A stretch of DNA of 44,643 nt, from contig JAFGUB010000031.1 of the NCBI GenBank assembly GCA_016938735.1, positions 1 to 44,643 of the forward strand, written 5' to 3'. Positions 29,631-44,643 of this stretch are shown here, one piece after another; within the stretch, counting starts at the first letter, position 1, and each line of letters begins with the position of its first letter. Source of the stretch: Campylobacterales bacterium. Its GTDB lineage: Bacteria; Campylobacterota; Campylobacteria; Campylobacterales; Sulfurimonadaceae. The notes below the pieces were generated by a model, which saw nothing but the letters and a program-made list of their open reading frames with translations, made no database searches and had not been told where the DNA came from. A program made the translations under genes and the position numbers.

Positions 29631-29768
29631 TCGGCGGTGATGTACTACACCGAGCTAGACCCCCAGACGCGCCAAAAGATCTTTGTCGAAAAAGATACCG
29701 TGCGCAAAGAGAAGCAAAAGGCGATTGTGGTGGCCAAAGAGGAGATCAGGCACGGCTTTGATTCGTGA
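29631..29768 (+). pseudogene. C-terminal tail of the YgiQ gene beyond the TGA
   Basis: In the same frame as YgiQ, 45 codons follow the stop and read SAVMYYTELDPQTRQKIFVE, then a Lys-rich helix and a second TGA at 29766-29768. The segment matches the usual YgiQ C-terminus. It overlaps the 3' end of the convergent hybrid kinase gene by 23 bp. Confidence 0.8.
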
Positions 29769-32700
29769 TAGGACTTGGCGCAGTGAGCAGCGCATCGATC
29801 CGCTGGGCCGCCGCTTCGAGTGCGAAACCATCAATCAAGTGTCCGATGGTTTCGGCTTCGCGGCTCCATCCGCAGGCACCAAGCCATGAGAGAATCTGCT
29901 CTTTGTGCAGTACCGCTTGGGTATCGAGGTCATGCAACAGCGTAGCGTAGCGGCGTAGTTGCAGTTGAGGGCTCAAGTCGTTTGACGGCTCGTTTGTTGG
30001 GTGTGCTTCTGCGTGCAGCGCCTCGTCAATGGCGTCGATCAGCGCCGCAAACCGCGCTTCGAGCATCTCCCATTGGGCTTGCGTGATGGGAGTGTTTGGC
30101 ATCTGTATCTCAAGTTGGCGCAGATCGTGCATCAGGGCGCTGGCTCCGATATTGCCGCAGAGCCCTTTAAGGCTGTGGATCTCGCGTGAAGCGGTCTCTA
30201 ACTCCTGATGCTCGTAGTGAGCGCGCATCTGTGTGAGGGCTTCGCGCTGCGTCTGTGCAAAGCGTCGGAGTAGGGTGCGTAACAAGGCGGTATCGCCGCC
30301 GCAGTGGTTCAAAGCGGTGTCAAGGTCAAGTGTATGAATCGGCGCAAGCACGCTTTGGTCGGGCTGTTGGAGCAGGGCGCCGCTATGGTGGTGTGCGGGT
30401 CGGATATGGCGGGCAAGCACATCGAAAAACGCACGCAGATCGAGCGGTTTGGAGATAAAATCGTTCATTCCCACCGCTAGGCAGTGCTCTTGGTTTTGCT
30501 CTTGGACGTTGGCCGTCATGGCGATGATGGGGAGGTCGGCGTATTGGCTCATCGCGCGGATGCGTCTCGTAGCCTCAAAGCCGTCCATTTCAGGCATCTG
30601 ACAATCCATCAAAACACCGTCGAAAACCTCCTCTTCGAGCTTGCGCAGTGCCTCGATGCCGTTTTGAGCACAGATCGAGGTGGCATTGGCTTTGGCCAGA
30701 TAGGATTGGACGATCTCTTGACCCAGTAGATTGTCCTCTACCACGAGCAGATGCGCACCGCTTAGTGTTCGTATCGAAGATTCGATCGGCTCAATGGTTT
30801 CATAGGGCGTTTGCTGCGTCAACAGCGGCTGCAGCGGTAGCGTGATGGTGAAGAAAAAGCTGCTGCCTTGTCCTAGGGTGCTTTCAAAACCGATGGCGCC
30901 GCCCATCCGATCGATCAGTGCTTTGCAGATCGACAGCCCAAGGCCGCTTCCTCCGTAGCGGCGGGTGGTGGAGATATCGGCTTGCTTAAAGGCCTCAAAG
31001 AGTTGTTGTTGTGCTTGCGTGTCAATCCCGATCCCGCTGTCTATGACCGCGAAACGCAACGTCGCCGTATCAGCGTCGCAGGCCTTACATGTAATGCTGA
31101 CGCGCACGCCGCCTTCGTGGGTGAATTTGATCGCGTTGCCGACGAGATTGATGAGAATCTGTCCCAGACGCAGCGGATCGCCCATCAGCGCCGTGGGCAC
31201 CTCCGGTGCGATCTCAAAGCGTAGATCAAGCCCCTTTTGTTTGGCTTGAAGGGTGTGGATGTCGATGATTTTTTCTTGGAGTGCTTCGAGTCTGAAGGGG
31301 ATCTGCTCAAGACTCAATTTGCCCGCTTCAATTTTTGAGAAGTCCAAAATATCGTTGAGAATCCCCAGCAGATGCTGCGCGGCGTTTTGCGTTTTTCGGG
31401 CGTAATTGAGGATGCGCTCATCCGAACCCTCTTGCAGCAGCAGGGTCTGCATACCGATGATGGTATTCATCGGCGTTCTGATCTCATGGCTCATATTGGC
31501 CAAAAAGATACTTTTGGCCTGAGTTGCCTCTTCGGCGACGGCGCACGCCTCTTGAAGTGCTTTGAGCGCCTCATGTTCGCTTGTGGTATCAAGTACCACC
31601 ACGACGACACCGCCGTTTTGCTCCTCCAGTGCGCGCATGGAGATACGGGCCCAAAAACTCGAGCCCTCTTTGCGCTCCAGCTGCTGCTCCCAGATGGTGA
31701 TGGTATCGCTCATCATATCGGCTTGTGGTAGCCACGAAGAGGTCTGCGCTCCGATCTGCGCTCCTTGGGCGTAGCCCATCAGCTCATCCATCCGCCGATT
31801 GCAGCGTGCGATTCGCCCCTCCAGCACAAAGGCGATCCCGACGCCCGCAGCATCGAAAATGGCCTGCTGCTCATGGCTCAGCTGTGACAGCGCGCGCGTG
31901 CGCTCTTCGACGATACCTTCAAGATCGCGGTTGAAGGCTGCGAGCTGGGCGGTTTTGAGTGCTACCTTTTGGTTGAACTTGCGGTTCCAGTAAACGAGCC
32001 ACAAGGTGAGCGCCAATGCGCCAAGTGCGATGCGCAGTGCCAGATCGTAGTCGATTTTGGGGGCAAACTCCAGATGAACCCAGCGGTTACGGATCTGCAG
32101 CGACTCTTCGGGGGTGATCGAGGATAAAGCGGCGTTGAGGATGGAGGCGAGCATGGGGTCGTTGGTGATCAAGCCCGTCTCCATGACCACGTCGGTTTTG
32201 CCCACCACCTGCAGATTGTGCAGCCCCTCTGTGACGATCATATAGGTGGCGAAGGTGAGCGAGGAGAGCATCGCGTCGTAGCGGCCGCTGGCGACCCCTT
32301 CGAGGGCTTTGGTCGGACTTGTGACTGGGATGAACTCAAGAAGCGGGTAGCGCGCTTGAATCGCTTGGGTGTAGCTGTAGTCGCCCATGATGGCGATGCG
32401 TTTGCCCTGCAGCTCAGAGAGATCGGCAATAAAAGGGGTATGCGCTTGCGCTTTCATGATGATCACCACGGGGCTATTGAAGTAGCTTTGGGTTGTGTTT
32501 GCATCTGGGGTATCGGATGCGGCTCTGAAGTAGGGGTGCAGATCGGCGCTTTGCGACTCAAGAGCGGCCTTACATGTAAGCGGATCGCCCGCTAGACGCT
32601 CGATGGTGATCCCCAGCCGCGACGCGATCAGGTTTAAGTGATCGGTGACGATGCCGTGATGTGCACCGTCAATAAAGGTCTCATGCGGCAAAATATTCTG

Positions 32701-35010
32701 ATGGCCGCAGTAGATCAGGCGTTGGCGGTTGTGCAGCCAGCGCTGCTGCGCACTGTCGAGCTTGGGTTGGGCCGAGGCTTTTTGGAAGCTTCCAAGCACC
32801 CAACGGTTGCGGATCATGGCGTGCTCTTGCGGGGTGAGGGTATCGAGCCCTTTTTGGAGGATGTCGCGCAAAACGGTCTGCTCTTTGAGGGTTGCAAAAT
32901 GGAGTTTGCCATCTTCGCCGATCGCTTCAAACTCAAGCGGGGTGATCCGGATATTGGTGAGCGTGCGCTGCATCATCAGGTGGCTGAGCACCGCGATGGA
33001 GTCGATCATCGCATCGGCGGAGCCAAAATTGACCGCACTTAAAGCCTCAGCGACGCTTTGGGTTTTGATCAGCGTGACGCCCGGGACCTGCTTGAGGAGC
33101 TGCTGCGCGGTGCTAAAACCCTCGACCATCGCCACGCGCTTGCCGCGCAGTGCGGCGATGCTTTTGATCTCACTCCCTTTTTGTGATGCCAAAGCGTAGT
33201 AGCTGGTGTAATAGGGGGTGGTAAAGGCAAAGTGTTGATCGCGCTGCGGTGTGCGGTAGATGCTCTGCATCAGATCGATCTCGCCGGCTTGAAAGGCACC
33301 AAGCAGCTCCTCCCATGAGCCTTGAACATAGCGTACATGTAAGCCCACTTTACGGGCAATGTGCTCAAGATAATCGATACTCAAACCGCTTGAGCGCCCC
33401 TGCTCGATGAAATCAAAGGGAGGCCAGTCGTGCTCGCTTGAAGCGGTGATGAAAGGATGGGCATTGATCCATGCCCGCTCATGCGCTTCAAGTGTGATCG
33501 CTCCTTTTTGTCTCTCTTCTGAGGGTGCCTGTAGGGTGCCTTCCCATCGGCTGCGGATCTGCTCGATCTCCTGTGGGGTATAGGAGGCGATGGCCTTGTC
33601 GATGATGCTTTGCAGCAGAGGATCGCTCAGAGCATAGTGCGAAGCGCTTTGCAGCTCCGAGAAAAAACGCAGTGCCAATTTGTACTCCTGCGCCTCGGCC
33701 CTTCGGCTTAGGGCGTGATGCAGCGGGGCGGCGTAGTCAAGCACCCCATCGGCGCGTTTGGCCTTGAGCGCTTCGATCAGTTGGGTCATGCCGCCTTGAA
33801 TCTCGATCAGCTCCAGATCGGGCCGCCAGCGCTTGACGAAGGTACTAAAGGCACTCCCTTGAACAATCGCGATGCGTCGCCCTTCAAAGGCCTGAAGGGT
33901 GTCGATGTAGGGGTGGGTGCTGGGTGTCAAGAGGCCGATCGGGGCGAGATGATAAGCTTTTGAGAAGTGCAGACGCGCTTCGCGCTCGGGTGTGGGCGAG
34001 GCGGGAAAGATGCCCTCATAGCGGTGCGCCATCGCCGCTTCGAGTGCGTCGCTCCAGGGCAGATGTTCAAGGGTGATCGGGATCTTGAGGCGTGATGCGA
34101 GCAGGGCGGAAAAGTCGATCTCCAGCCCCATGTACAGGCCGCTTGGATCTTTGAAGCTAAAAGGGGCCCACTCTTGCGACGCGCTGACAAAGTGCAGCCG
34201 CTTTTTGCTTCTGAGGTAGCTGCGCTCCTCTTGTGTCAGGTTCAGATCCACGCTGCGCTCTTGCGACCACTGCGCCAAGATGGCACCGAGCGTATCGCCT
34301 TGAACCTCATCCAGCGCTTTTTGCAAGAGGGTGTGCAGCAGCGGATAGCTTTTGGATGTGCCGATGCAGAGCAAAGAGCCTTCGCGGGTGGTATCGAGGG
34401 CGTCGATTTTGAGGTTATCAAAGAGTTCGTGCGTGATCTTGTGGCGCACGACGGCGCGGTTGCCCACGTAGGCATCGACCAAGCCGTTTGATAGGGCGTC
34501 GAGGGCGGCGGAGGTATTGGGGTAGGTGTGCAGCTCGATCTGCGGAAAGTAGCGTTTTAGATGGGCTACGGTGCCTACCCCCTCTTCGAGCGCGACGCGC
34601 TTGTGGCGCAGAGCGGCCAGCGAGCTAAAGGGGCTCTGCGCTTTGCGCGAAACGATCACATGCGGAATGTGCAGATAGGGGTCGCTAAAGTAGAAGTGTG
34701 CTTCGCGTTCGGGTTTTGGGGTGAGGTCGAGCAGGGCGTGAAGCGACCCTTTTTGGGCGGCGTCATAGAGTTTGTGCCAGTCATCCGAGACGATAACGAG
34801 CTTGCCTTCTAAATGGCGGTTGAGCGCCGCTACAAGATCGGCGCCGATACCTGAGGCATGACCTTGAAAATCACGAAAATTGATCGGCTCCCAATCGTGC
34901 ATCGCGCCGATGCGGATCTCTGGCTGCGCTTCGAGCCATGCGCGCTCCTGTGGGGTGAGGGCGAGCGCGTAGAGCCAAAACGGCAGCAGCAGGAGCCAAA
35001 AGGTTTTCAT
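29746..35010 (-). CDS. Giant hybrid histidine kinase with four tandem solute-binding domains (BvgS/EvgS type)
   Basis: The 1754-residue protein begins with a signal sequence (MKTFWLLLLPFWLYALA). Four SBP_bac_3 (Venus flytrap) domains follow at about residues 20-250, 265-490, 515-745 and 765-985, joined by similar linkers (ERAWL, ERSYL, ERAWI, QRWLH starts; IRNRW-type ends). Then come a membrane helix (about 990-1010), a PAS domain (1045-1160), HisKA with MSHEIRTPMN (His about 1175), a HATPase (DSGIGI, GGSGLGLSI), a receiver (LLVVEDN about 1420, VLMDCQMPEMDG) and an Hpt domain (REIHSLKGLCG about 1611). BvgS carries two flytraps; four is unusual. Ligands cannot be told. It is the last gene of the operon and its ATG overlaps the previous stop (ATGA). 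Confidence 0.93.
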   Translation of the reverse strand: MKTFWLLLLPFWLYALALTPQERAWLEAQPEIRIGAMHDWEPINFRDFQGHASGIGADLVAALNRHLEGKLVIVSDDWHKLYDAAQKGSLHALLDLTPKPEREAHFYFSDPYLHIPHVIVSRKAQSPFSSLAALRHKRVALEEGVGTVAHLKRYFPQIELHTYPNTSAALDALSNGLVDAYVGNRAVVRHKITHELFDNLKIDALDTTREGSLLCIGTSKSYPLLHTLLQKALDEVQGDTLGAILAQWSQERSVDLNLTQEERSYLRSKKRLHFVSASQEWAPFSFKDPSGLYMGLEIDFSALLASRLKIPITLEHLPWSDALEAAMAHRYEGIFPASPTPEREARLHFSKAYHLAPIGLLTPSTHPYIDTLQAFEGRRIAIVQGSAFSTFVKRWRPDLELIEIQGGMTQLIEALKAKRADGVLDYAAPLHHALSRRAEAQEYKLALRFFSELQSASHYALSDPLLQSIIDKAIASYTPQEIEQIRSRWEGTLQAPSEERQKGAITLEAHERAWINAHPFITASSEHDWPPFDFIEQGRSSGLSIDYLEHIARKVGLHVRYVQGSWEELLGAFQAGEIDLMQSIYRTPQRDQHFAFTTPYYTSYYALASQKGSEIKSIAALRGKRVAMVEGFSTAQQLLKQVPGVTLIKTQSVAEALSAVNFGSADAMIDSIAVLSHLMMQRTLTNIRITPLEFEAIGEDGKLHFATLKEQTVLRDILQKGLDTLTPQEHAMIRNRWVLGSFQKASAQPKLDSAQQRWLHNRQRLIYCGHQNILPHETFIDGAHHGIVTDHLNLIASRLGITIERLAGDPLTCKAALESQSADLHPYFRAASDTPDANTTQSYFNSPVVIIMKAQAHTPFIADLSELQGKRIAIMGDYSYTQAIQARYPLLEFIPVTSPTKALEGVASGRYDAMLSSLTFATYMIVTEGLHNLQVVGKTDVVMETGLITNDPMLASILNAALSSITPEESLQIRNRWVHLEFAPKIDYDLALRIALGALALTLWLVYWNRKFNQKVALKTAQLAAFNRDLEGIVEERTRALSQLSHEQQAIFDAAGVGIAFVLEGRIARCNRRMDELMGYAQGAQIGAQTSSWLPQADMMSDTITIWEQQLERKEGSSFWARISMRALEEQNGGVVVVVLDTTSEHEALKALQEACAVAEEATQAKSIFLANMSHEIRTPMNTIIGMQTLLLQEGSDERILNYARKTQNAAQHLLGILNDILDFSKIEAGKLSLEQIPFRLEALQEKIIDIHTLQAKQKGLDLRFEIAPEVPTALMGDPLRLGQILINLVGNAIKFTHEGGVRVSITCKACDADTATLRFAVIDSGIGIDTQAQQQLFEAFKQADISTTRRYGGSGLGLSICKALIDRMGGAIGFESTLGQGSSFFFTITLPLQPLLTQQTPYETIEPIESSIRTLSGAHLLVVEDNLLGQEIVQSYLAKANATSICAQNGIEALRKLEEEVFDGVLMDCQMPEMDGFEATRRIRAMSQYADLPIIAMTANVQEQNQEHCLAVGMNDFISKPLDLRAFFDVLARHIRPAHHHSGALLQQPDQSVLAPIHTLDLDTALNHCGGDTALLRTLLRRFAQTQREALTQMRAHYEHQELETASREIHSLKGLCGNIGASALMHDLRQLEIQMPNTPITQAQWEMLEARFAALIDAIDEALHAEAHPTNEPSNDLSPQLQLRRYATLLHDLDTQAVLHKEQILSWLGACGWSREAETIGHLIDGFALEAAAQRIDALLTAPSPITNQSRA

Positions 35011-36140
35011 GGGCTTACATGTAAGGCTATCGGCAGCGTCAGTTCAAAGCAGGCACCCTCATCGTCGTTGTAGGCGCGTAGGGTTCCGCCCAGGCGTTTG
35101 GTGACGATTTGGTGGCTCATGTAGAGTCCTAAACCTGAGCCTTTGGTTTTTTTGGTCGAGACATATTTGTCAAAGATCCGCCCCAAAACCGCGGGGTCGA
35201 TACCGCGGCCGTTGTCGCAGATGCGCAAGGTGATGATGTGGGCATTTTGGCTCATCTGGATACGGATACGGCGCTCTTTGGGACGCTGCATCAGGACATC
35301 GACCGCATTGGCAAAGATGTTCATCAACACTTGAATCAGATCGTTTTTGCGGGTGCTTAGTTCGATGGGAAGCGCTTCGAGCTGCACATCGATGTCGTGG
35401 TGGATGAATTTGAGCTCGAAGAGCTTGAGCGTTCGGCGCACCATCTCTTCGAGCGCTACCGTTTCGGGTTTGGGCGTCTCTTGGATGAAGTCTCGAAAAT
35501 CATCGACGGTGCGGGAGAGGTGGGTCACGGCGCTGTCGATGGCATCGAGTGCATCGCGCTCTTCGGCCTCATCAAGCGATCCCAGCGCCCGACCCAGACG
35601 GATGTTGTGGCAGCTAAGCGAGATGATGGAGAGGGGTTGTTTCCACTGATGGGCAATGTGTTCGAATATCTCACCCAGTGAGGCCATCTTCGACTGTGTG
35701 ACGAGCAGCTCCTCTTTGTGCGCCAGCTCGGATGCGAGGGCATCGCGCAGACCTTTGAGCTCGATATGGGTTTTGATGCGGGCCTTGAGCACCTCAGGTT
35801 CAAAGGGTTTGGCCACGTAATCGACCGCGCCGACTTCAAAGCCCTTGACGATGTCGTGTTCGCTCTCGAGCACCGTGATAAAGATGAGCGGGATGTGCGC
35901 CAAAGCCTCCTGCGCTTTGATACGGCGGCACACTTCGAAGCCGTCAAGATCGGGCATCAGCACATCGAGCAAGATCAGATCGATCACCGGACGCTCGCTT
36001 AGATAGTCCAGCGCTTGGATGCCGCTTGCAGCAGCTTTGATCGTATAGTCGCTTTGCAGCAGGTGTGTGAGCATCATGAGCATATCGGGCATATCGTCGA
36101 TGATGAGGATGACCGGTTTTACATGTAAGGCTTGCGGCAT
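35007..36140 (-). CDS. Receiver-histidine kinase fusion, soluble
   Basis: The 377-residue protein has an N-terminal receiver domain (about 9-125: ILIIDDMPDM, phospho-Asp in LILLDVLMPDLDG, Lys in VAKPFEPE). A short coiled coil leads to a histidine kinase with HIAHQWKQPLSIIS (His about 165) and a HATPase ending (ICDNGRGIDP, KGSGLGLYMSHQIV). There is no membrane segment, so it is a cytoplasmic relay whose kinase is probably controlled by phosphorylation of its receiver. Exact TTACATGTAA palindromes lie close to both ends of the gene (36119 and 35015), giving ALHVKP near the start and ALHVSP at the stop. It abuts the HD-GYP gene without a gap and overlaps the giant kinase gene. Confidence 0.92.
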   Translation of the reverse strand: MPQALHVKPVILIIDDMPDMLMMLTHLLQSDYTIKAAASGIQALDYLSERPVIDLILLDVLMPDLDGFEVCRRIKAQEALAHIPLIFITVLESEHDIVKGFEVGAVDYVAKPFEPEVLKARIKTHIELKGLRDALASELAHKEELLVTQSKMASLGEIFEHIAHQWKQPLSIISLSCHNIRLGRALGSLDEAEERDALDAIDSAVTHLSRTVDDFRDFIQETPKPETVALEEMVRRTLKLFELKFIHHDIDVQLEALPIELSTRKNDLIQVLMNIFANAVDVLMQRPKERRIRIQMSQNAHIITLRICDNGRGIDPAVLGRIFDKYVSTKKTKGSGLGLYMSHQIVTKRLGGTLRAYNDDEGACFELTLPIALHVSP

Positions 36141-37637
36141 TTAAAATCCTTTGATCTGTGCGATGTTGGCCAGAGGCTGCAGTTGTAAATCGATTGGGCG
36201 GTAGCTAAGGGTGATCCCTTGATCGGAGAGCTTTTGCGATTGTGCGTCAAGCCGCTCCAGATTGAGCGTCTCACGATCGAGGATCACGAAATTGTCTCCG
36301 AATACCCTAAAGATCATCGCTTCGGGCCAGAGTGCTTTGAGCTCCAGACTAAAGGATTTGAGTAGCGCGTCGCCCGCTTCCCAGCCATGGCTCTTGTTGA
36401 ACTGCGAGAAGCGGTGTAGCAAGATCAGATGCATGTAGCGATAAGGTTCCGGACTAAAGACGTTTTGTTTCAAAATGACGTCGAGATAGCGCTTGTTGTA
36501 AAAACCGGTGAGAGGATCGCGGTAAAAGTAGGCGAAGCGCTCTTGTTCGAGCTGATTGTGAGGAAGTTGATCGACCTGGGCATTGAGCTGAATCTGCTGC
36601 AGAGCCACAACCGCCGCGTCGACCACTTCGGGATGAAACTGTACACCGCTAAAGGTGCGCAACTCCGACAGCGCTTCGGGGAGCTCTTTGCGCGCTTTGT
36701 AGATGCGGCTGGTGGTCATGGCGTCAAAAGCGTCGGCGACGATCATAATGCGCGCTAGCGGATCGATAGCGTTGCCGCTTAGGGCGTCGGGATAACCGGT
36801 ACCGTCGTAGCGTTCGTGGTGGTGGCGCATGATTTCGGCAATCGGTGCGAAGATCGGGATGTTGTGCAGGAGTCTGTAGCCGATGGCAACATGCTCTCGA
36901 ATGATCTGCTGTTCCAAGGGTTCGAGCCGCTGGGGATTGAGCAAAATGTTGTCGGGGATGGCGATTTTACCGATGTCATGCAAGATGCCCGCCTTGTACA
37001 GCAGTGCGCAGGTGGGCTCATCGTATCCCATGGTTTGAGCGATCTTGACAGAGTATTCGGCAACGCGCACGGAGTGTCCGGCGGTGTAGGTGTCGCGGCT
37101 TTCGATCATCTCCACCATGGAGCGCAGCGTCATCTCGTACTCTTCGATTCTTCTTTGCTGCAAGAGCTCGAGATCATGGCTCTTTTGATCCACCATCCGT
37201 TCGAGCCCCTCTTTGTAGGCGCGGTTTTCACGCCTCATCTCAACGCGCACGAGACTTTTGTAGAGCTCTTGGGTCAAAACCTCGAAATCGAAGGGCTTGA
37301 GCAGGTAGCCGCTGACGCCGATGGCGATGGAGCCTGAGAGGTAGTGATAGTCGCTAAAGGCCGAGACGATGAGAATCTCCTGCTCCTCATCAAGCGCACG
37401 AACGGCTTTGGCCAAAGCGAGGCCATCCATTTTGGGCATGGAGATATCGGTGATGACGATGTGGTACGGAGCGGCTTTATAGAGCGTAAGCGCTGCTTCC
37501 CCGTCGTGCGCTAGATCGACATGGGCAAACAGTTTGGAGAGGAATTGTGCCATCTTGGTGCAGATCTCAAGATCGTCATCGACAAACAGAACCTTCTTCT
37601 CTTGACTCAGGGTTTTGAGTGCTTGAAGATTGGTCAC
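36141..37637 (-). CDS. Receiver-HD-GYP cyclic-di-GMP phosphodiesterase with decayed GGDEF domain
   Basis: The 498-residue protein has a receiver (about 15-130: VLFVDDDLEI, phospho-Asp in IVITDISMPKMDG). An HD-GYP domain (about 165-340) has the metal-binding set intact: AGHSVRVAEYS, GILHDIGKIAIPD, IMRHHHERYDGTGYPD (the GYP signature) and IVADAFDAMTTSR. HD-GYP enzymes break cyclic-di-GMP to GMP. The C-terminal part begins DPLTGFYNKRYLD, a GGDEF-domain start, but the active site reads FRVFGDNF instead of GGDEF, so it is probably inactive as a cyclase and may only bind GTP or partners. The GTG start at 37637 overlaps the previous stop. Confidence 0.93.
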   Translation of the reverse strand: MTNLQALKTLSQEKKVLFVDDDLEICTKMAQFLSKLFAHVDLAHDGEAALTLYKAAPYHIVITDISMPKMDGLALAKAVRALDEEQEILIVSAFSDYHYLSGSIAIGVSGYLLKPFDFEVLTQELYKSLVRVEMRRENRAYKEGLERMVDQKSHDLELLQQRRIEEYEMTLRSMVEMIESRDTYTAGHSVRVAEYSVKIAQTMGYDEPTCALLYKAGILHDIGKIAIPDNILLNPQRLEPLEQQIIREHVAIGYRLLHNIPIFAPIAEIMRHHHERYDGTGYPDALSGNAIDPLARIMIVADAFDAMTTSRIYKARKELPEALSELRTFSGVQFHPEVVDAAVVALQQIQLNAQVDQLPHNQLEQERFAYFYRDPLTGFYNKRYLDVILKQNVFSPEPYRYMHLILLHRFSQFNKSHGWEAGDALLKSFSLELKALWPEAMIFRVFGDNFVILDRETLNLERLDAQSQKLSDQGITLSYRPIDLQLQPLANIAQIKGF

Positions 37638-37990
37638 GTCTGCGCTCCTGTGGGCAAGAGGATCTCAAAGCGGACACCGTGCGCTTCATTGTAGACCTCC
37701 AAAGTGCCGTGAAGGTGTTTTTCGACGATGGTTTTGGCGATGTAGAGTCCAAGCCCGGCCCTCTGATGCTCCTCTTTGGTGGTGAAATAGGGGTTGAAAA
37801 TATCGTGAATGATCGCGGTGTCGATCATTCCGGCGTTGTTGCTCAGTGCGATGCAAACCGTCTGCGGACTCTTTTGGCTTACATGTATAGCGATTCGTCG
37901 ATCTTCATTGTTGTGGCGCAAGAGCGCCTCTTTGGCATTGGTGAGAATGACGAGCAGCACCTGCTGTAGTTCACGGACGCTCAACGTCAC
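37634..37990 (-). CDS. C-terminal ATPase fragment of the frameshifted PAS-PAS-GAF kinase
   Basis: This 118-residue frame has the HATPase parts of a histidine kinase: N-box QQVLLVILTNAKEALLRHNN, then NPYFTTKEEHQRAGLGLYIA and a C-terminal LEVYNEAHGVRFEILLP. Its GTG at 37990 has no ribosome-binding site. The frame remains open upstream to 38040, where it joins the -1 frame of the preceding kinase (EYHDITLQTVYAYEGTVTLS). It is therefore the missing end of that kinase, not a separate gene. The canonical Asp-x-Gly-x-Gly box reads SNNAGMID. Confidence 0.85.
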   Translation of the reverse strand: MTLSVRELQQVLLVILTNAKEALLRHNNEDRRIAIHVSQKSPQTVCIALSNNAGMIDTAIIHDIFNPYFTTKEEHQRAGLGLYIAKTIVEKHLHGTLEVYNEAHGVRFEILLPTGAQT

Positions 37991-39636
37991 CGTGCCCTCA
38001 TACGCATAAACGGTCTGAAGGGTGATGTCGTGGTATTCGAAATCTCCAAAGCCTCTTCGATCGGGGCGCGCAAAGTGGTCTGCTGGTCGTGCGAACTGGA
38101 TGCAAAAAAGGTACGAAAATCGTCGATGATCATTGAGAGCTTGCGGGTTTGATCGAGCAGCTCTTCAAGGGCTTGGCGTGCTTGCAGGGGGTTGAAGAGC
38201 TCGAGCTCGATATCGGCAATGATGTTGTTAACCCCCATGGCAATGACGGCGATGGGTTGGCGCCATTGGTGGGCAATCATACCGATCATCTCTCCCATAG
38301 CGGCGTAGCGCGACTGCGCCAAAAGCATCTCCTGAGTTTGTTGTAGTTTGATACGGTTGCGTTGGCGCTGTACCAGACGCCACGTCTCATTGGCCAGTAG
38401 CTGCAGGGTCTCTACGTCGGTTTGGTTGTACGCTTCATCTTTGTTGCCGATGCCGCAGAGCATCACGACTTTATTGTCTTCGATCACCGGTAGACTGATA
38501 AAGCGCTCAAGCGGCGCATGCCCCTCGGGCAGACCGCGTTTGTGGGGGTGTTTGGGATAGTCGTTGATGACGATGGCTCGGCGCTCGCGCAGCGCATCGG
38601 CCCAGATGCCGGCTTGGGTTACGGGGTAGTGACGATCATGTACCACATGGCAATACTCATCAAGGGTACGGCGTGACCAGGTGATCAGCTCGATGCTCTG
38701 CTCATCATCATTGACGAAATGGATAAAAGAGATCGGGCTTTGGGTAAGCTCCTCGGCCATTTCGAGCATCCGCTGCATAAAGTCGGGTTTGCTCAGCGAT
38801 TCGCTCAGATCCGGCAGCGCCAACATCACTTCGGCGCGGCGGGCGTGTAAGGCGTTGCGCGCTTCGCTGGCTTTGATGCGGGTGATATCGGCGTGGGTAC
38901 CGATCATCCGTACCGCTGTGCCCTCCAGATCAAAAAGGGTGAACCCCTTATCCAAAATCCAGATCCATGCTCCGTTTTTGTGGCGCATACGGTATTCGAT
39001 GTCGTAGTTGCGGTTGGGGGCGCTGTGCGCATGGGTGATCGCATCGAGCGCGCCTTGCAGATCATCGGGATGCACCAGCGTGCTCCAACTCTCAAGTGCG
39101 CAAGGCAACTCATCGTCTCCGTAGCCCAGCATCTCTTTCCAGCGTGGCGAAAAGTAGATCGTGTCGGTGCGCAGATCCCAGTCCCACAGTCCTTCATTCG
39201 CGCCTTTGAGAGCGAACTCATAACGCTCTTTGAGCAGATGCAGCGCGGAGACATCGTTCATATAGCCAAATAAAAGACCTTTCAAAGAGGAAGGGTGCAG
39301 CTCTAGCTCAAAGATATAGACCGCGTCGCCGCGTACAATCTTGACGCGCTGAGGTTCGTTGCGGTGGTTGAGTACATATTCCGCCCAAGGCACCCCATCT
39401 ACGGTGGCACTTAAAAATCCGGGGCAAGGCTCGAAAAAATCGCCAACGCAGGCGTGCGCCGATTTGAACGATGCGATCGTCTCAAAACCGAAAAAGTCCA
39501 AAAAACGGCGGTTACATGTAAAGAGTGAAGCGCCGTCGGTGACAAAGATCAGGGCCGATTGGGCATCTAAAAGGGTGTCAAACAGATGGGTTTGGTCACA
39601 TTGCGCGTAGGCATCCATCGAAGTATCGAAGATCAT
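37987..39636 (-). CDS. PAS-PAS-GAF histidine kinase, N-terminal part (frameshifted near 38040)
   Basis: The frame codes 549 residues. A first PAS lies at about 22-130 (SALIFVTDGASLFTCNRRFL). A second PAS at about 140-262 contains NEGLWDWDLRTDTIYFSPRW, DDLQGALDAI and MIGTHADITRIK. A GAF domain spans about 270-415 (SPISFIHFVNDDEQSIELIT, SLPVIEDNKVVMLCGIGNK), followed by the phospho-acceptor helix MIAHQWRQPIAVIAM (His about 448). After APIEEALEIS the frame changes to nonsense (NTTTSPFRPF…). Reading the minus strand, one T too few at the AAA run 38040-38042 restores EYHDITLQ and the ATPase domain ending at 37634. The restored protein would have 667 residues. It has no membrane segments and overlaps the ODP gene by ATGA. 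Confidence 0.9.
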   Translation of the reverse strand: MIFDTSMDAYAQCDQTHLFDTLLDAQSALIFVTDGASLFTCNRRFLDFFGFETIASFKSAHACVGDFFEPCPGFLSATVDGVPWAEYVLNHRNEPQRVKIVRGDAVYIFELELHPSSLKGLLFGYMNDVSALHLLKERYEFALKGANEGLWDWDLRTDTIYFSPRWKEMLGYGDDELPCALESWSTLVHPDDLQGALDAITHAHSAPNRNYDIEYRMRHKNGAWIWILDKGFTLFDLEGTAVRMIGTHADITRIKASEARNALHARRAEVMLALPDLSESLSKPDFMQRMLEMAEELTQSPISFIHFVNDDEQSIELITWSRRTLDEYCHVVHDRHYPVTQAGIWADALRERRAIVINDYPKHPHKRGLPEGHAPLERFISLPVIEDNKVVMLCGIGNKDEAYNQTDVETLQLLANETWRLVQRQRNRIKLQQTQEMLLAQSRYAAMGEMIGMIAHQWRQPIAVIAMGVNNIIADIELELFNPLQARQALEELLDQTRKLSMIIDDFRTFFASSSHDQQTTLRAPIEEALEISNTTTSPFRPFMRMRAR

Positions 39637-40397
39637 CCGTAGAGCTCCGTGCCCAAATCGATCCCGCAGCGCAACTGTTCAAACCATGCCAGAAAGTGCG
39701 TTACGTCTTGATCCTTCAGTAGTGCTCCATGCTGCGGTGCGATCTGTGCGATGTCGAAACGCCGTACTTTCTGAACCCAAAAACGTACGGCGGCATTGGA
39801 AGCCATATAGCGGCGGTGAAAGCCCTCAAGATAGGGTAGGTGGCTCTCAAAATCGTGTACCTCTTTGTAGAGCTGTGAAGGGGGCACGACCGCAGCGCCG
39901 ATATCGCCGCTAAAGAGGATTTGTGAGCGGCTGTCATAGAGCGAGAAGTTACCCGGTGAGTGCAAAAAGTGCGCCGGAATAAAGTGCAAGGCGTCGTTGC
40001 CAAAGACGATTTTGCCGCCGTGGTCTTCTAAAGGAAGCATCCTTCCCATATCCAGCAGGCCGTAATGGCTCATAAACCGTACCCATAGCTTCGAGAGCAC
40101 CAGTTTGGCTTTGGTGGCTACCCCCCATTCGGTAATTGAGCCGGCGACATCGGGGTCTTGGTGGGAGAAGAAGATATATCGGAGTTTATCAATCGCAATA
40201 TGGCGCTCGATCGCTTCGCTAAGGTCATAAAAGATGGCTGATGAGCCCGGGTCAAGCAGTATGGCACTGTCGTTTTGAATGATAAGGTACTGATTGACGC
40301 TCAAAAAGCGCTCCTCTTGGGATTCGTCGTCAAAGCTAAACATGACACACTTGTGGGTACCGTCGTCAAAGAGGATCTTTTCGTGATTATTTTCCAT
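39633..40397 (-). CDS. ODP-type metallo-beta-lactamase-fold protein, putative di-iron oxygen sensor
   Basis: The 254-residue protein has the beta-lactamase fold of flavodiiron proteins but no flavodoxin domain. Metal ligands are visible in FFSHQDPDVAGSI (His-x-Asp-x-Asp), AHFLHSPGNFSLYD, ILFSGDIGAAV and IAPQHGALL. This matches the ODP group, oxygen-binding di-iron proteins found beside chemotaxis and signalling genes. The inner cavity could bind oxygen or NO; a reductase role without a flavodoxin domain would need a partner. It lies between two signalling genes, overlapping both (11 bp and 4 bp), which argues for a sensory role in the operon. AAAGGA precedes the ATG. Confidence 0.87.
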   Translation of the reverse strand: MENNHEKILFDDGTHKCVMFSFDDESQEERFLSVNQYLIIQNDSAILLDPGSSAIFYDLSEAIERHIAIDKLRYIFFSHQDPDVAGSITEWGVATKAKLVLSKLWVRFMSHYGLLDMGRMLPLEDHGGKIVFGNDALHFIPAHFLHSPGNFSLYDSRSQILFSGDIGAAVVPPSQLYKEVHDFESHLPYLEGFHRRYMASNAAVRFWVQKVRRFDIAQIAPQHGALLKDQDVTHFLAWFEQLRCGIDLGTELYG

Positions 40398-41898
40398 ATT
40401 GCATTCCTTTAAATTCCCGGATGAGTTCCATTTGTCGTTTGGCGAGGTATTCGGTGAGACTGCGTTTGGTGGCAGGGTTGGTCAGCTCGAATGAGCAGAC
40501 AAGCTCGAAGCGGCGTGCTTGTTCGCTCTTTTTGATCAGCGTCGCTTCGGTGTTGATGATGATCTGGCGTTTCTCGATCCCCAGCACCATATCCAGTCGT
40601 ACTATTTCGCCTTTCTCAAGGCCTGCAGGCAGAGCGTTCATGGCAATGCGCACTGCGTCTACCGAGAGATCGAGAATGCTCAGATCGCCGAAAAATTTGT
40701 GTTCGTTAAAAAAGAGCGTCACGGTATGCTCACTGCTGGGCTCGAGCCGAATGTTTTTGCGCTGTAGCGGTGAGGAGTTTAAGAGTCGTACGCCTGAGCA
40801 GAGGACGCTTTGGTTGTCAAAATCTATTTTTTGCACGCCGTCGCAGGCGATATCTGCGGGTAGGGCTTCGCTACTGAGAACGAAGCTCTTTTCGACCTGT
40901 ATCGCCTTTTGCTGCAGGAAATTGGTTTTGATGTGCAGCGTGTCGTTTTTGGTCTCGACGATTACTCCGTCATTGGTGATGCTAAGGCCGCGGTAGAAGT
41001 TGTGGATTTTCACTTTGGCGTGGTTGCGCTCGATGACGCCGAGCAGATCGAAGATCTTTTTACGGTCGGTTTTGCTTCGGTCGTCCTTGCTGGTTTTACC
41101 GTCGAAGAGCCCTAATAGATTGAGCTCCGTAATGTCGTCAAAAGAGAGGATGGTGTACTCCTCTTTTTGGGGAACGTGGTGGAGCTTGAAGATGAAGTGG
41201 TGCGTCGTATGGTTGGCGTCATTCATCTTGACATGGAAGAGTTTATCAGGAGCGGCCGAGGCGACCTCAAACCACTCTTGATGAGCTTCGTTGTACAAAA
41301 AACCCTCATGACGCAGTAGGCAGCTGCCCAAATCGCCGCGCATCTGCATAAATCCTTCAATCGAGTCGATACCGAAAAAGTCTAAAAAGCGCTGGCTTGC
41401 CAGCAGCATCTTTCGGCCTTGCATCATCACCACGAGGGCGCTTTGGTAGTTGAAGACGTCGCTAAGGTGGGTGTAGAAGATACGGCTCTGCTCTTCGTTT
41501 TCGATCGCTTCAATCGCGGCGCCAAGCGCATCGCCGAGTTGTGTCACTGAGGCGGGTTTTTTGATAAAGCGAAAGACCCCAAGCTCGATCCCTTTCATCA
41601 GTGTCTCTTGATCGTCATGGGCGGACATGATGATGATTTTGGTGTCGGGGCGGATCTTTTTGATCTGGGCAATCAAAGAGAGCCCGTCCATGTTGGGCAT
41701 CTTCAGATCGGTGATGACGATGTGGGGATGGTGTTTGCGAAAGAGCTCAAGCGCCTCTATGCCGTCTTGTGCCTCATAGACCTCTGAGAAGAGTTTGCGA
41801 AAAAAGAGCGACGCCTGCCCTCGCAGATGGGCATTGTCTTCGGCAAAAAGGAGCCTGTAACCGACCGCTCTGGTTTTGAGTTGCGCAAGATCGGACAT
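40387..41898 (-). CDS. Receiver-PAS-PilZ protein, putative cyclic-di-GMP effector
   Basis: The 503-residue protein has a receiver domain (about 14-130: LLFAEDNAHLR, phospho-Asp in IVITDLKMPNMDG, Lys in FIKKPASV). A PAS-like domain (about 150-270) contains LLASQRFLDFFGIDSIEGF and ILSFDDITELNLL. A middle region (275-375) resembles no named domain. A PilZ domain (about 385-495) shows RKNIRLEP (Arg-x3-Arg) and DLSVDAVRI. PilZ binds cyclic-di-GMP through Arg-x3-Arg and Asp-x-Ser-x-x-Gly; the final Gly is Ala here. No kinase or DNA-binding domain is present, so it is a likely output protein. It overlaps neighbours by 1 and 11 nt. Confidence 0.85.
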   Translation of the reverse strand: MSDLAQLKTRAVGYRLLFAEDNAHLRGQASLFFRKLFSEVYEAQDGIEALELFRKHHPHIVITDLKMPNMDGLSLIAQIKKIRPDTKIIIMSAHDDQETLMKGIELGVFRFIKKPASVTQLGDALGAAIEAIENEEQSRIFYTHLSDVFNYQSALVVMMQGRKMLLASQRFLDFFGIDSIEGFMQMRGDLGSCLLRHEGFLYNEAHQEWFEVASAAPDKLFHVKMNDANHTTHHFIFKLHHVPQKEEYTILSFDDITELNLLGLFDGKTSKDDRSKTDRKKIFDLLGVIERNHAKVKIHNFYRGLSITNDGVIVETKNDTLHIKTNFLQQKAIQVEKSFVLSSEALPADIACDGVQKIDFDNQSVLCSGVRLLNSSPLQRKNIRLEPSSEHTVTLFFNEHKFFGDLSILDLSVDAVRIAMNALPAGLEKGEIVRLDMVLGIEKRQIIINTEATLIKKSEQARRFELVCSFELTNPATKRSLTEYLAKRQMELIREFKGMQYGK

Positions 41899-42299
41899 TA
41901 GCCCTCTTTGGACGCTAGGTGTGCTTCAAGAGCGCGCAGCAATTGCGTGATCATCGCAAAATCGACCGGTTTGGGAAAGCACAGATGAGCGACGTTTTGG
42001 GTATCGACGGGGTCTACGGTGCCCGAGAAGATGACCCGAAAAGGATCGTATCCGCGTTCAAGTAAGGTCTGCATGAGCGTGAGTCCGTCCATACCCGGCA
42101 TACGCAGATCACACAGCAGCAGATCGTATTGCGTTATGGAGAATTTTTCGAGCGCTTCCGTGGCATCTGCGGCACAATCCACGCGATCAAAAAAGCGCTG
42201 CATGAGCCTACATGTAGCATCACGCACCGCAGCTTCGTCATCGACGACCAAGGCAACGATATGATGCAACGCTTCGCGCAATTTTTGGGTTTCATTCAT
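41898..42299 (-). CDS. Stand-alone receiver domain protein
   Basis: The 133-residue protein is a single CheY-like receiver: VALVVDDEAAVRD (acidic pocket), phospho-Asp in LLLCDLRMPGMDG, IFSGTVD and CFPKPVDFAM (Lys-Pro). It has no output domain and could act as a phosphate shuttle or sink between the kinases. AAGGAG lies 6 nt upstream of the ATG. It overlaps the upstream kinase by ATGA and the downstream receiver-PAS-PilZ gene by 1 nt. Confidence 0.92.
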   Translation of the reverse strand: MNETQKLREALHHIVALVVDDEAAVRDATCRLMQRFFDRVDCAADATEALEKFSITQYDLLLCDLRMPGMDGLTLMQTLLERGYDPFRVIFSGTVDPVDTQNVAHLCFPKPVDFAMITQLLRALEAHLASKEG

Positions 42300-43192
42300 G
42301 AATACTCCTTGCAGGGGATGGTAAGCGTAAAACAGATACCTCGGGCCTGACTGTGTACCTCAATGGTACCATGAAGCTGCTTTTGGACAATCATCTGGCT
42401 GATGTAAAGACCAAGACCCGTTCCCGACTGCTCCCCTTTGGTCGTAAAATAGGGCTCGAAAATACGGTCGATGATGATAGGATCGATACCGGGACCGTTG
42501 TCACAAATGCTGATCATGAGCCTGTCCTGACCTGCTAAAACGTTGATGGTGATGGCAGCATCTTTGGTATGATGGTCGTTTAGGGCGTCTTGAGCATTGC
42601 GCACGAGATTGATCAGCACTTGTAGTAAGGCGCGGGCATGGAGCGTCGTTTCGAGCGTATCATCACACTGCACGTTGAGCGCAATGGAGGAGTACTCCAG
42701 ACTTTTGCCGATGATTTGGCGCAGCTCGTCAAGCAGCGTGGCGATGCGGATGGTTTCGGGTTTGTGTTTGGGCTTGAAAAAGTGTCTGAAATCTTCTATG
42801 GTGCGTGAGAGGTATTGAGACTGCTCCAGTATCATCTGACATTGACGTTCCACCTCCTCATCCTCGATCTGGTTGAGCGCGACATCGGCCAAAAGGGCGC
42901 TGGCGCTCATGCTGATGGTGCCTAAAGGCTGACGCCATTGATGGGCGATGAGGCTGAGCATCTCGCCCATGGCGGCGCTACGCGCTTGCGTGAGCATCAT
43001 CTCTTGGTTTTTGATCAGCTCCGAGCGGAGTGATTCACGCTCCGTAATGTCCTCACCGGCACAAATGACACCGTAAGCTTGGCTGTTTGAGTGATAGAGC
43101 ATCGTGTTGTGCCAGCTGATGAGGTGGGTTTTACCGGTGAGATCGAGTACCTCGTTCTCAAAGTATTCGGGCAACGGTTCGATGCCTTGCAT
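42296..43192 (-). CDS. C-terminal half of the membrane PAS histidine kinase (after in-frame TGA)
   Basis: This 298-residue frame holds the end of a PAS domain (EVLDLTGKTHLISWHNTML, GVICAGEDITERE), a phospho-acceptor helix SLIAHQWRQPLGTISM and a HATPase domain (INLVRNAQDAL, ICDNGPGIDP, GTGLGLYISQMIV). The ATG at 43192 lies inside the PAS domain, so it is not a natural start. The frame is open upstream to the TGA at 43255-43253 (FEHFLPPTCASQVHAFFKRS), joining it to the N-terminal half. Its TGA overlaps the receiver gene start. Confidence 0.88.
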   Translation of the reverse strand: MQGIEPLPEYFENEVLDLTGKTHLISWHNTMLYHSNSQAYGVICAGEDITERESLRSELIKNQEMMLTQARSAAMGEMLSLIAHQWRQPLGTISMSASALLADVALNQIEDEEVERQCQMILEQSQYLSRTIEDFRHFFKPKHKPETIRIATLLDELRQIIGKSLEYSSIALNVQCDDTLETTLHARALLQVLINLVRNAQDALNDHHTKDAAITINVLAGQDRLMISICDNGPGIDPIIIDRIFEPYFTTKGEQSGTGLGLYISQMIVQKQLHGTIEVHSQARGICFTLTIPCKEYS

Positions 43193-43252
43193 GCTACGTT
43201 TGAAAAAGGCATGGACTTGTGAGGCGCATGTCGGCGGTAAAAAGTGCTCGAA

Positions 43253-44104
43253 TCAATTGAGTCCGATCATATGCTCACTCGGACAGCCTAGAATCTCGCC
43301 GGCCTTTGAGTTGGCCATCACGATGGTCCCTTGCACGTCGAGAATGATCAGCATGGTACCGATCTTGTCAAGATACTCGCGGTTAAGTGCGTGTTCGGTG
43401 GCGAGCATACGCTCTTGCTCTTCAAGTTGCTCGATATTTTTTTGCATCTGCTTGAACAGAGGAGCGATGAGGTAGTGTTGCAGCATGATCAGCGCCATAG
43501 CAATCAAAACCGCCGCACTCAAAGCCACAAATGCCAGTTGCATGTAATGCTCATTGAGCTTGGCGATGCTCAGATGTCCTACGAGGGTTAAATCGGGGTA
43601 GAGTGGATTGACGATGCGCGTGGCGTAGGCTATGACACGCTCGGGTGCTCCACTGCACCGTACCTCTGAATAGAAGGTCTCATCCGGGGTGTTAAGAGCC
43701 TGACGCAGCAGTGCAGCGTTGGCTGATGTCTCTAGGACATGTTCTCGGATTCTGCAGTTTTTAAAGTGGTGAAAGAGCATGTAGGTATGCTCGGGCGTAG
43801 TGTAAAAGAGGGTGTGGTCGATACGCGCCGTTGCGGCGATTTTGTGGAGGGCTGCGTCGAAACGCTCAATGGAGCGCCGCAGCGCCTCTTGGGTGCTTAT
43901 GCCGAGCAAGGAAGTAGTGCTTTGATCGGCTTCGATGATTGCCTCTAGGATTCGTGCGTCTTGTTGCAGTTGTGATGCTACCCATTGGGTATTGGCTTCG
44001 ATTTTAGCTGAGTAGGCTTCATGCAACAGCACGACGGCAAAGAGAATGATGGAGAGTACCGTAATGAGTATCATGGCAAGATAGCGCTTCTGTTCGATAT
44101 GCAC
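43253..44104 (-). CDS. N-terminal sensor half of the membrane PAS histidine kinase (stops at in-frame TGA)
   Basis: The product has a membrane helix near the N-terminus (LAMILITVLSIILFAVVLL). An extracytoplasmic domain of about 140 residues follows (AYSAKIEANTQWVASQLQQ to LTLVGHLSIAKL), then a second helix (LAFVALSAAVLIAMALIML), a coiled coil and the start of a PAS domain (ILDVQGTIVMANSKAGEIL). It stops at MIGLN-TGA where PAS domains of this type read N-W-F; the frame then continues into the kinase half. TGG to TGA is the simplest explanation. I take the GTG at 44104 because GGAG lies 6 nt upstream; a TTG at 44116 would place that site inside the gene. It is the first gene of the signalling operon. 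Confidence 0.85.
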   Translation of the reverse strand: MHIEQKRYLAMILITVLSIILFAVVLLHEAYSAKIEANTQWVASQLQQDARILEAIIEADQSTTSLLGISTQEALRRSIERFDAALHKIAATARIDHTLFYTTPEHTYMLFHHFKNCRIREHVLETSANAALLRQALNTPDETFYSEVRCSGAPERVIAYATRIVNPLYPDLTLVGHLSIAKLNEHYMQLAFVALSAAVLIAMALIMLQHYLIAPLFKQMQKNIEQLEEQERMLATEHALNREYLDKIGTMLIILDVQGTIVMANSKAGEILGCPSEHMIGLN

Positions 44105-44141
44105 GATTGGCTCCAAGGGCTAGGATTGCGGCTTGAAACTC

Positions 44142-44236: not shown

Positions 44237-44643
44237 ATGAAACGATACGCACATTTAATTTGTTGGTTGGCCTTGGTGCTTTTACACTCCGCACTGGTTG
44301 CCGATGAGGGGTATTATCGCAAAATCGTCGTCGGGAGTTATCTGACCGAGTCTGACGCTCACGCGGCCCTAAAGCGCCTGGATAACGAGTTGCAAAGCCA
44401 TCCTCAGATCGCGGACCTTCAACAAGAGCACGGATTTGCGTTTATTGCCCGCTCTTCCGGTGCGTACTACATTGTCTCCGTTGAGCCGTTTCATGACAGG
44501 GTGGTACTGCAAAGTGTCCTTGACACGCTGCGCTTAAATCATCCCGACGTCTTCGTCAACCGCATAGAACCGCCCGCGCAAGCCTCAAGTGTTTCAAGTG
44601 TTTCAAGTGTTTCAAGTGTTTCAAGTGTTTCAAGTGTTTCAAG
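44237..44643 (+). CDS. Exported SPOR-like protein with Ser-Ser-Val repeat, partial
   Basis: The frame is open from ATG 44237 to the window end (135 codons seen). It starts with a signal peptide (ICWLALVLLHSALVADEG). A SPOR-like unit follows (about 25-105: YYRKIVVGSYLTESDAHAAL, GAYYIVSVEPFHDRVVL). From about residue 117 it becomes a Ser-Ser-Val repeat coded by a perfect 9-bp tandem repeat that runs off the edge. SPOR units bind peptidoglycan, so a cell-wall or envelope role is possible. It diverges from the signalling operon across 132 bp. Confidence 0.75.
   Translation, partial: MKRYAHLICWLALVLLHSALVADEGYYRKIVVGSYLTESDAHAALKRLDNELQSHPQIADLQQEHGFAFIARSSGAYYIVSVEPFHDRVVLQSVLDTLRLNHPDVFVNRIEPPAQASSVSSVSSVSSVSSVSSVS
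44585..44643 (+). repeat. 9-bp tandem repeat (TCAAGTGTT), at least 6.5 copies
   Basis: Six perfect copies of TCAAGTGTT plus TCAAG fill the last 59 bases, in frame with the SPOR-like gene (Ser-Ser-Val). The array is cut by the window end, so the copy number is a minimum. Changes in copy number would keep the frame and alter linker length. Confidence 0.95.

Follow-up and report, generated by a model that had tools for sequence, protein, structure and literature searches.

A sensor kinase frame interrupted by an in-frame TGA

The window, by which we mean the whole analyzed stretch of 44,643 nucleotides from a bacterium of the sulfur-cycle type, carries a signaling operon on its minus strand, the first gene of which is a sensor histidine kinase frame of 602 codons with a TGA at codon 284 (minus strand 43255–43253). 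The frame opens with a GTG at 44104, just 3' of a GGAG at 44114–44111, and closes with a TGA at 42298–42296; the codon at 43255–43253 is the sole internal stop between the two. The minus strand around it reads ATG ATC GGA CTC AAT TGA TTC GAG CAC TTT TTA CCG, the third base of the TGA being plus position 43253, exactly where the original prediction had placed a stop between MIGLN and FEHFLP. The upstream ORF (43253–44104) encodes a transmembrane segment, a periplasmic sensor, a second transmembrane segment and the first half of a PAS domain, with a predicted product of 283 residues. The in-frame continuation (42296–43252) encodes the rest of the PAS domain, HisKA and HATPase_c and ends with a TGA; an open kinase half of 319 codons had been predicted, and although the frame is indeed open, its length is 318 sense codons. 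Open runs in the other five frames of this post-stop stretch reach at most 78 codons, and for random sequence of equal composition the chance of remaining open as this frame does is ~2e-6.

Read through the stop, the frame matches PAS (residues 249–361), HisKA (PF00512, 1e-7) and HATPase_c (PF02518, 7e-23) in Pfam, and the phospho-acceptor H box and the N and G boxes of a HisKA kinase are all present (MLSLIAHQWRQP, NLVRNAQDAL, DNGPGI and GTGLGL). Because the post-stop stretch of 318 codons is free of stops, conserved and equipped with complete HisKA and HATPase domains, we treat the split frame as one gene, although the TGA at 43255–43253 breaks the continuous frame under translation table 11 that such a kinase should have. 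The stop cuts the PAS fold itself and, as foreseen, separates the sensor and half of the PAS domain from a complete kinase. The order of transmembrane segment, sensor, transmembrane segment, PAS, HisKA and HATPase is that of the AtoS/ZraS-like sensor kinases, from which this kinase differs in being interrupted in its PAS domain; none of the NCBIfam equivalogs listed for that comparison attains its cut-off on it.

We considered whether the locus might encode two proteins, a 283-residue sensor and a separately started kinase made by termination-reinitiation coupling. The kinase half is intact, and the first possible restart, an in-frame ATG at 43192, lies 21 codons past the stop and would open a frame spanning 42296–43192. 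Against this, the two products would divide a PAS fold between them, no clear ribosome-binding site precedes the ATG at 43192, and the ATG is not kept in the ortholog described below, so that we regard a two-protein gene as very unlikely.

The genes downstream, all on the minus strand, are likewise mostly of signaling type. A receiver-only response regulator (41898–42299) overlaps the kinase stop by ATGA and is followed by a 503-residue receiver-domain protein (40387–41898), which holds the same order in the ortholog locus. Next comes an ODP-family metallo-beta-lactamase-fold protein of the di-iron oxygen-binding type (39633–40397; PF19583, E = 1e-72), the presence of which in a two-component operon suggests an oxygen or redox input. 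The second kinase of the operon (37634–39636, PAS-PAS-GAF-HisKA/HATPase) is frameshifted near 38038–38041, which parts HisKA from HATPase, and its ATP site is degenerate, with NNAGMI at G1 in place of the usual DNAGGI-like motif and RAGLGL at G2. Judged from these motifs, it looks like a case of real decay rather than of a single error. Beyond it lie a receiver protein with an HD-GYP type and a degenerate GGDEF domain (36141–37637), an intact receiver-HisKA-HATPase_c protein (35007–36140) and a 1754-residue hybrid kinase with SBP_bac_3 domains, a receiver and an Hpt domain (29746–35010). In this assembly, the operon is thus probably without its first two kinases. A search of plasmid records gave no match.

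The stop position in relatives and the genetic code

Among 228 genomes of the family, the sensor half was found only in one genome of the same genus (G001, matching record DZBC01000115, Sulfuricurvum sp. MAG SulCav_PC08-66), and the ortholog there is the only full-length relative found. It is 73% identical over its full length, starts at the equivalent GTG behind GGAG, and reads MIGLNWFEQFLPP, with TGG at the position of the stop codon. In an alignment of 35 PAS domains of the family, a set that includes the interrupted kinase itself, the residue at this position is tryptophan in 28, phenylalanine in 4, cysteine in 1 and tyrosine in 1. The expectation of a tryptophan at the stop is thereby borne out, and the possibility that homologues simply end here found no instance, since the ortholog and the 35 PAS relatives continue past the position. 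Compared with the ortholog, the parts upstream and downstream of the stop show 71% and 75% identity and a pN of 0.18 and 0.15, respectively, with dS saturated. The similar identity and pN on both sides imply that the lesion arose after the two species had diverged; these values allow no finer dating. Some apparent parallel cases were discarded: the TGA codons flagged in kinases of genus g8 (G025 and G008) are located upstream of the true start codons, and the TAG flags in G008, G040 and G059 are real gene ends.

A single in-frame stop in a conserved accessory gene whose ortholog is intact in a relative is what nonsense-interrupted bacterial sensor kinases, that is, pseudogenes or null alleles, have in common. 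The present gene differs from the typical case in having no second lesion and in carrying its stop exactly at a tryptophan codon. We also weighed the ways in which a UGA might be decoded. A table 4 type code, with UGA unused as a stop, RF2 lost or a tRNA-Trp(UCA) present, does not describe this organism: UGA terminates 14 of the 37 genes in the window and ~33% of the coding ORFs in an 833-kb sample of the genome, with no sign of avoidance, the RF2 gene (prfB) is intact and scores above the curated cut-off (505 bits), and the tRNA-Trp has the anticodon CCA. Genome-wide reassignment was rejected on these grounds.

Selenocysteine at this site has the identity of the stop codon in its favor and nothing else. 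Neither tRNA-Sec nor selB is found above cut-off in the genome, where the best selB match is the EF-Tu adjoining the tRNA-Trp gene; the RNA 3' of the UGA is no more stably folded than shuffled sequence (z +0.5) and offers no bSECIS hairpin; and the relatives carry tryptophan here, with cysteine in only one of the 35. The probability that we attach to it is negligible. Within the limits of the assembly, the data exclude both selenocysteine and a reassignment of UGA across the genome.

Interrupted genes elsewhere in the genome and the draft consensus

A census of interrupted genes was made by a dicodon six-frame scan of the 833-kb sample, which replaced a version based on single-codon usage that proved too noisy. 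Approximately six other genes that are otherwise intact are cut by TGA, TAG or TAA (about seven with this kinase). A TGA lies inside an FAD-dependent oxidoreductase (C31:98134), TAG inside a GGDEF-EAL protein, a chemoreceptor (MCP) and a MutS-like protein, TAA inside a hybrid kinase, and a possible TAG inside another kinase; a kinase on contig C54, outside the sample, has both an in-frame TAG and an in-frame TAA. Further signaling genes with one or two in-frame TAG or TAA codons, but otherwise intact, are at C31:78129 (−), C31:103442 (+), C31:57304 (+), C36:37868 (−) and L052. In 400 kb from each of two single-contig relatives, G016 and G244, we saw no convincing interrupted gene, as judged by eye. 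Interruptions are therefore above the level of the relatives, and they are not specific to UGA, because the genes concerned are cut by all three stop codons and the second operon kinase is frameshifted. At least one of the interrupting stops stands at a position that is not tryptophan in relatives.

The TGA in the FAD oxidoreductase also replaces a tryptophan codon, which is TGG in the sister genome (94% identical and uninterrupted) and in eleven other aligned relatives, the rest having mostly tyrosine. By path counting, the chance that two of seven interruptions are TGG-to-TGA changes is 1.5–8%, but the kinase TGA is itself what prompted the census and so is not independent. The interrupted oxidoreductase, at C31:97648–98997 (L224), resembles L-2-hydroxyglutarate oxidase and malate:quinone oxidoreductase. 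The MutS-like protein (C36:70505 (−)) has a C-terminal HNH-like region (CVICG...HHI), and its TAG falls just before the ATPase domain.

Such a census bears on whether the base itself is right. A consensus or assembly error, or a base from a minority strain, would leave the organism with TGG and an intact kinase, and we rank it second, given that interrupted genes are more numerous in the draft than in the finished relatives. The genome is a 62-contig draft, the window contig ends in a 9-bp repeat at which the assembly breaks, and by our own estimate the count of interruptions is what random base errors of ~1 in 5 kb would be expected to give; the non-tryptophan position noted above and the lack of a second lesion in the kinase half fit as well. 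All of the interrupted genes found, however, are accessory or signaling genes, and none of 82 GGDEF domains and only one of 66 HATPase domains contains a stop. The second operon kinase also has several altered catalytic residues in addition to its frameshift, which has the look of real decay. An erroneous base is a serious possibility but the less probable one when set against a genuine mutation.

tRNA-Trp, readthrough and the fate of the kinase

The only tRNA-Trp found in the genome (contig C48, next to EF-Tu) has the anticodon CCA, A9 and G24, and a C27:A43 mismatch that reduces its anticodon stem to 4 bp. C27:A43 occurs in all of the 30 closest tRNAs of the family; among 20 further ones, 8 share it and 12 (genera g2, g5, g7 and part of g6) have C27:G43. 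It is thus a clade feature, present in many but not all genera of the family, and not one specific to this organism. The stem is therefore unpinned at 27:43 in a tRNA that has neither A9C nor G24A, and the latter change, the Hirsh-type suppressor, is absent. No UGA suppressor tRNA was seen among the tRNA genes read, but these lacked several expected ones (Pro, His and Ile), so that a suppressor might lie in a gap of the assembly. A U50:U64 mismatch is also present in tRNA-Trp(CCA) (L073:1498–1573 (−) and L133:443–518 (−), contig C48).

Four-bp anticodon-stem tRNA-Trp(CCA) is prominent in Campylobacterota, and unpinning alone (C27A), with the tRNA overexpressed in E. coli, raised UGA readthrough ~2.5-fold (PMC13092985). 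The UGA could accordingly be read in part as tryptophan by the cell's own tRNA, so that some full-length kinase would be made, in low or regulated amounts. The residue inserted when UGA is read through is mostly tryptophan (PMC11126739), which suits a tryptophan site, the second in-frame TGA likewise stands at a tryptophan codon, and the downstream kinase half is again free of a second lesion. In having a sole tRNA-Trp that is unpinned at 27:43 and carries A9 and G24, the organism resembles the Blastocrithidia-like system in which a 4-bp-stem tRNA-Trp(CCA) reads UGA (PMC13092985). It differs in that UGA is an ordinary stop beside an intact RF2 and that a relative with this tRNA feature yielded no case of an interrupting UGA: G016, with the same C27:A43, shows no gene with an in-frame TGA in 400 kb. 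The other relative scanned, G244, has C27:G43.

Other observations also weigh against readthrough. TGA is the unavoided normal stop of approximately one-third of genes, and there is no excess of in-frame UGA at conserved tryptophans over other in-frame stops, TAG and TAA interruptions being as frequent in this genome as TGA (2 TGA versus ~5 TAG or TAA in 833 kb). With the finding itself omitted, one TGG-to-TGA change among six is not unusual (3–7% per event). The base after the TGA is T, and a U in this place makes UGA a strong terminator; the downstream RNA fold, moreover, does not exceed chance. We consider partial readthrough of this UGA unlikely. The broader proposal, that the 4-bp tRNA-Trp keeps UGA ambiguous in this genus and that a few tryptophan codons, such as those of the kinase and the FAD oxidoreductase, have drifted to UGA with full-length protein made at reduced levels, seems to us less likely still.

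The explanation that we find likeliest, although at roughly even odds, is a recent nonsense substitution in an ordinary transmembrane PAS sensor histidine kinase. A TGG-to-TGA change, a G:C to A:T transition, would have arisen in the kinase gene of a two-component operon; ribosomes would stop after 283 residues, the HisKA and ATPase domains would be made little or not at all, and the allele would be null or nearly so, making the gene a young pseudogene. This reading takes the TGA to be present in the organism's own DNA and to terminate translation efficiently, both of which we infer. The reading is favored because the ortholog has TGG and 28 of the 35 PAS relatives have tryptophan; because RF2 is present, tRNA-Sec and selB do not reach their cut-offs and TGA is a normal stop; because similar lesions occur in other accessory genes, including the second operon kinase; because a T after the stop goes with efficient termination in E. 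coli, where U in that position raises termination efficiency (PMC11126739); and because the housekeeping genes of the window have whole Pfam domains. Counting against it are the 4-bp anticodon stem of the tRNA-Trp and the unblemished downstream half, as would equally be expected from a consensus error or from readthrough. Of the three options left by the original prediction, a broken gene or allele is thus ranked highest, followed by a wrong consensus base and then by readthrough.

A broken or miscalled gene matters for annotation only. If the UGA is read through, the kinase would provide a natural test, in a bacterium that uses the standard code, of what a 4-bp tRNA-Trp does at native levels, a question left open by the work in E. 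coli (PMC13092985).

The 9-bp tandem repeat at the contig end (TCAAGTGTT, 44585–44643) is present in 6.6 copies, compared with 10.1 in a relative (L040:2832–2922). It lies within a divergent gene and apparently encodes a Val-Ser-Ser linker, the length of which could vary in frame.
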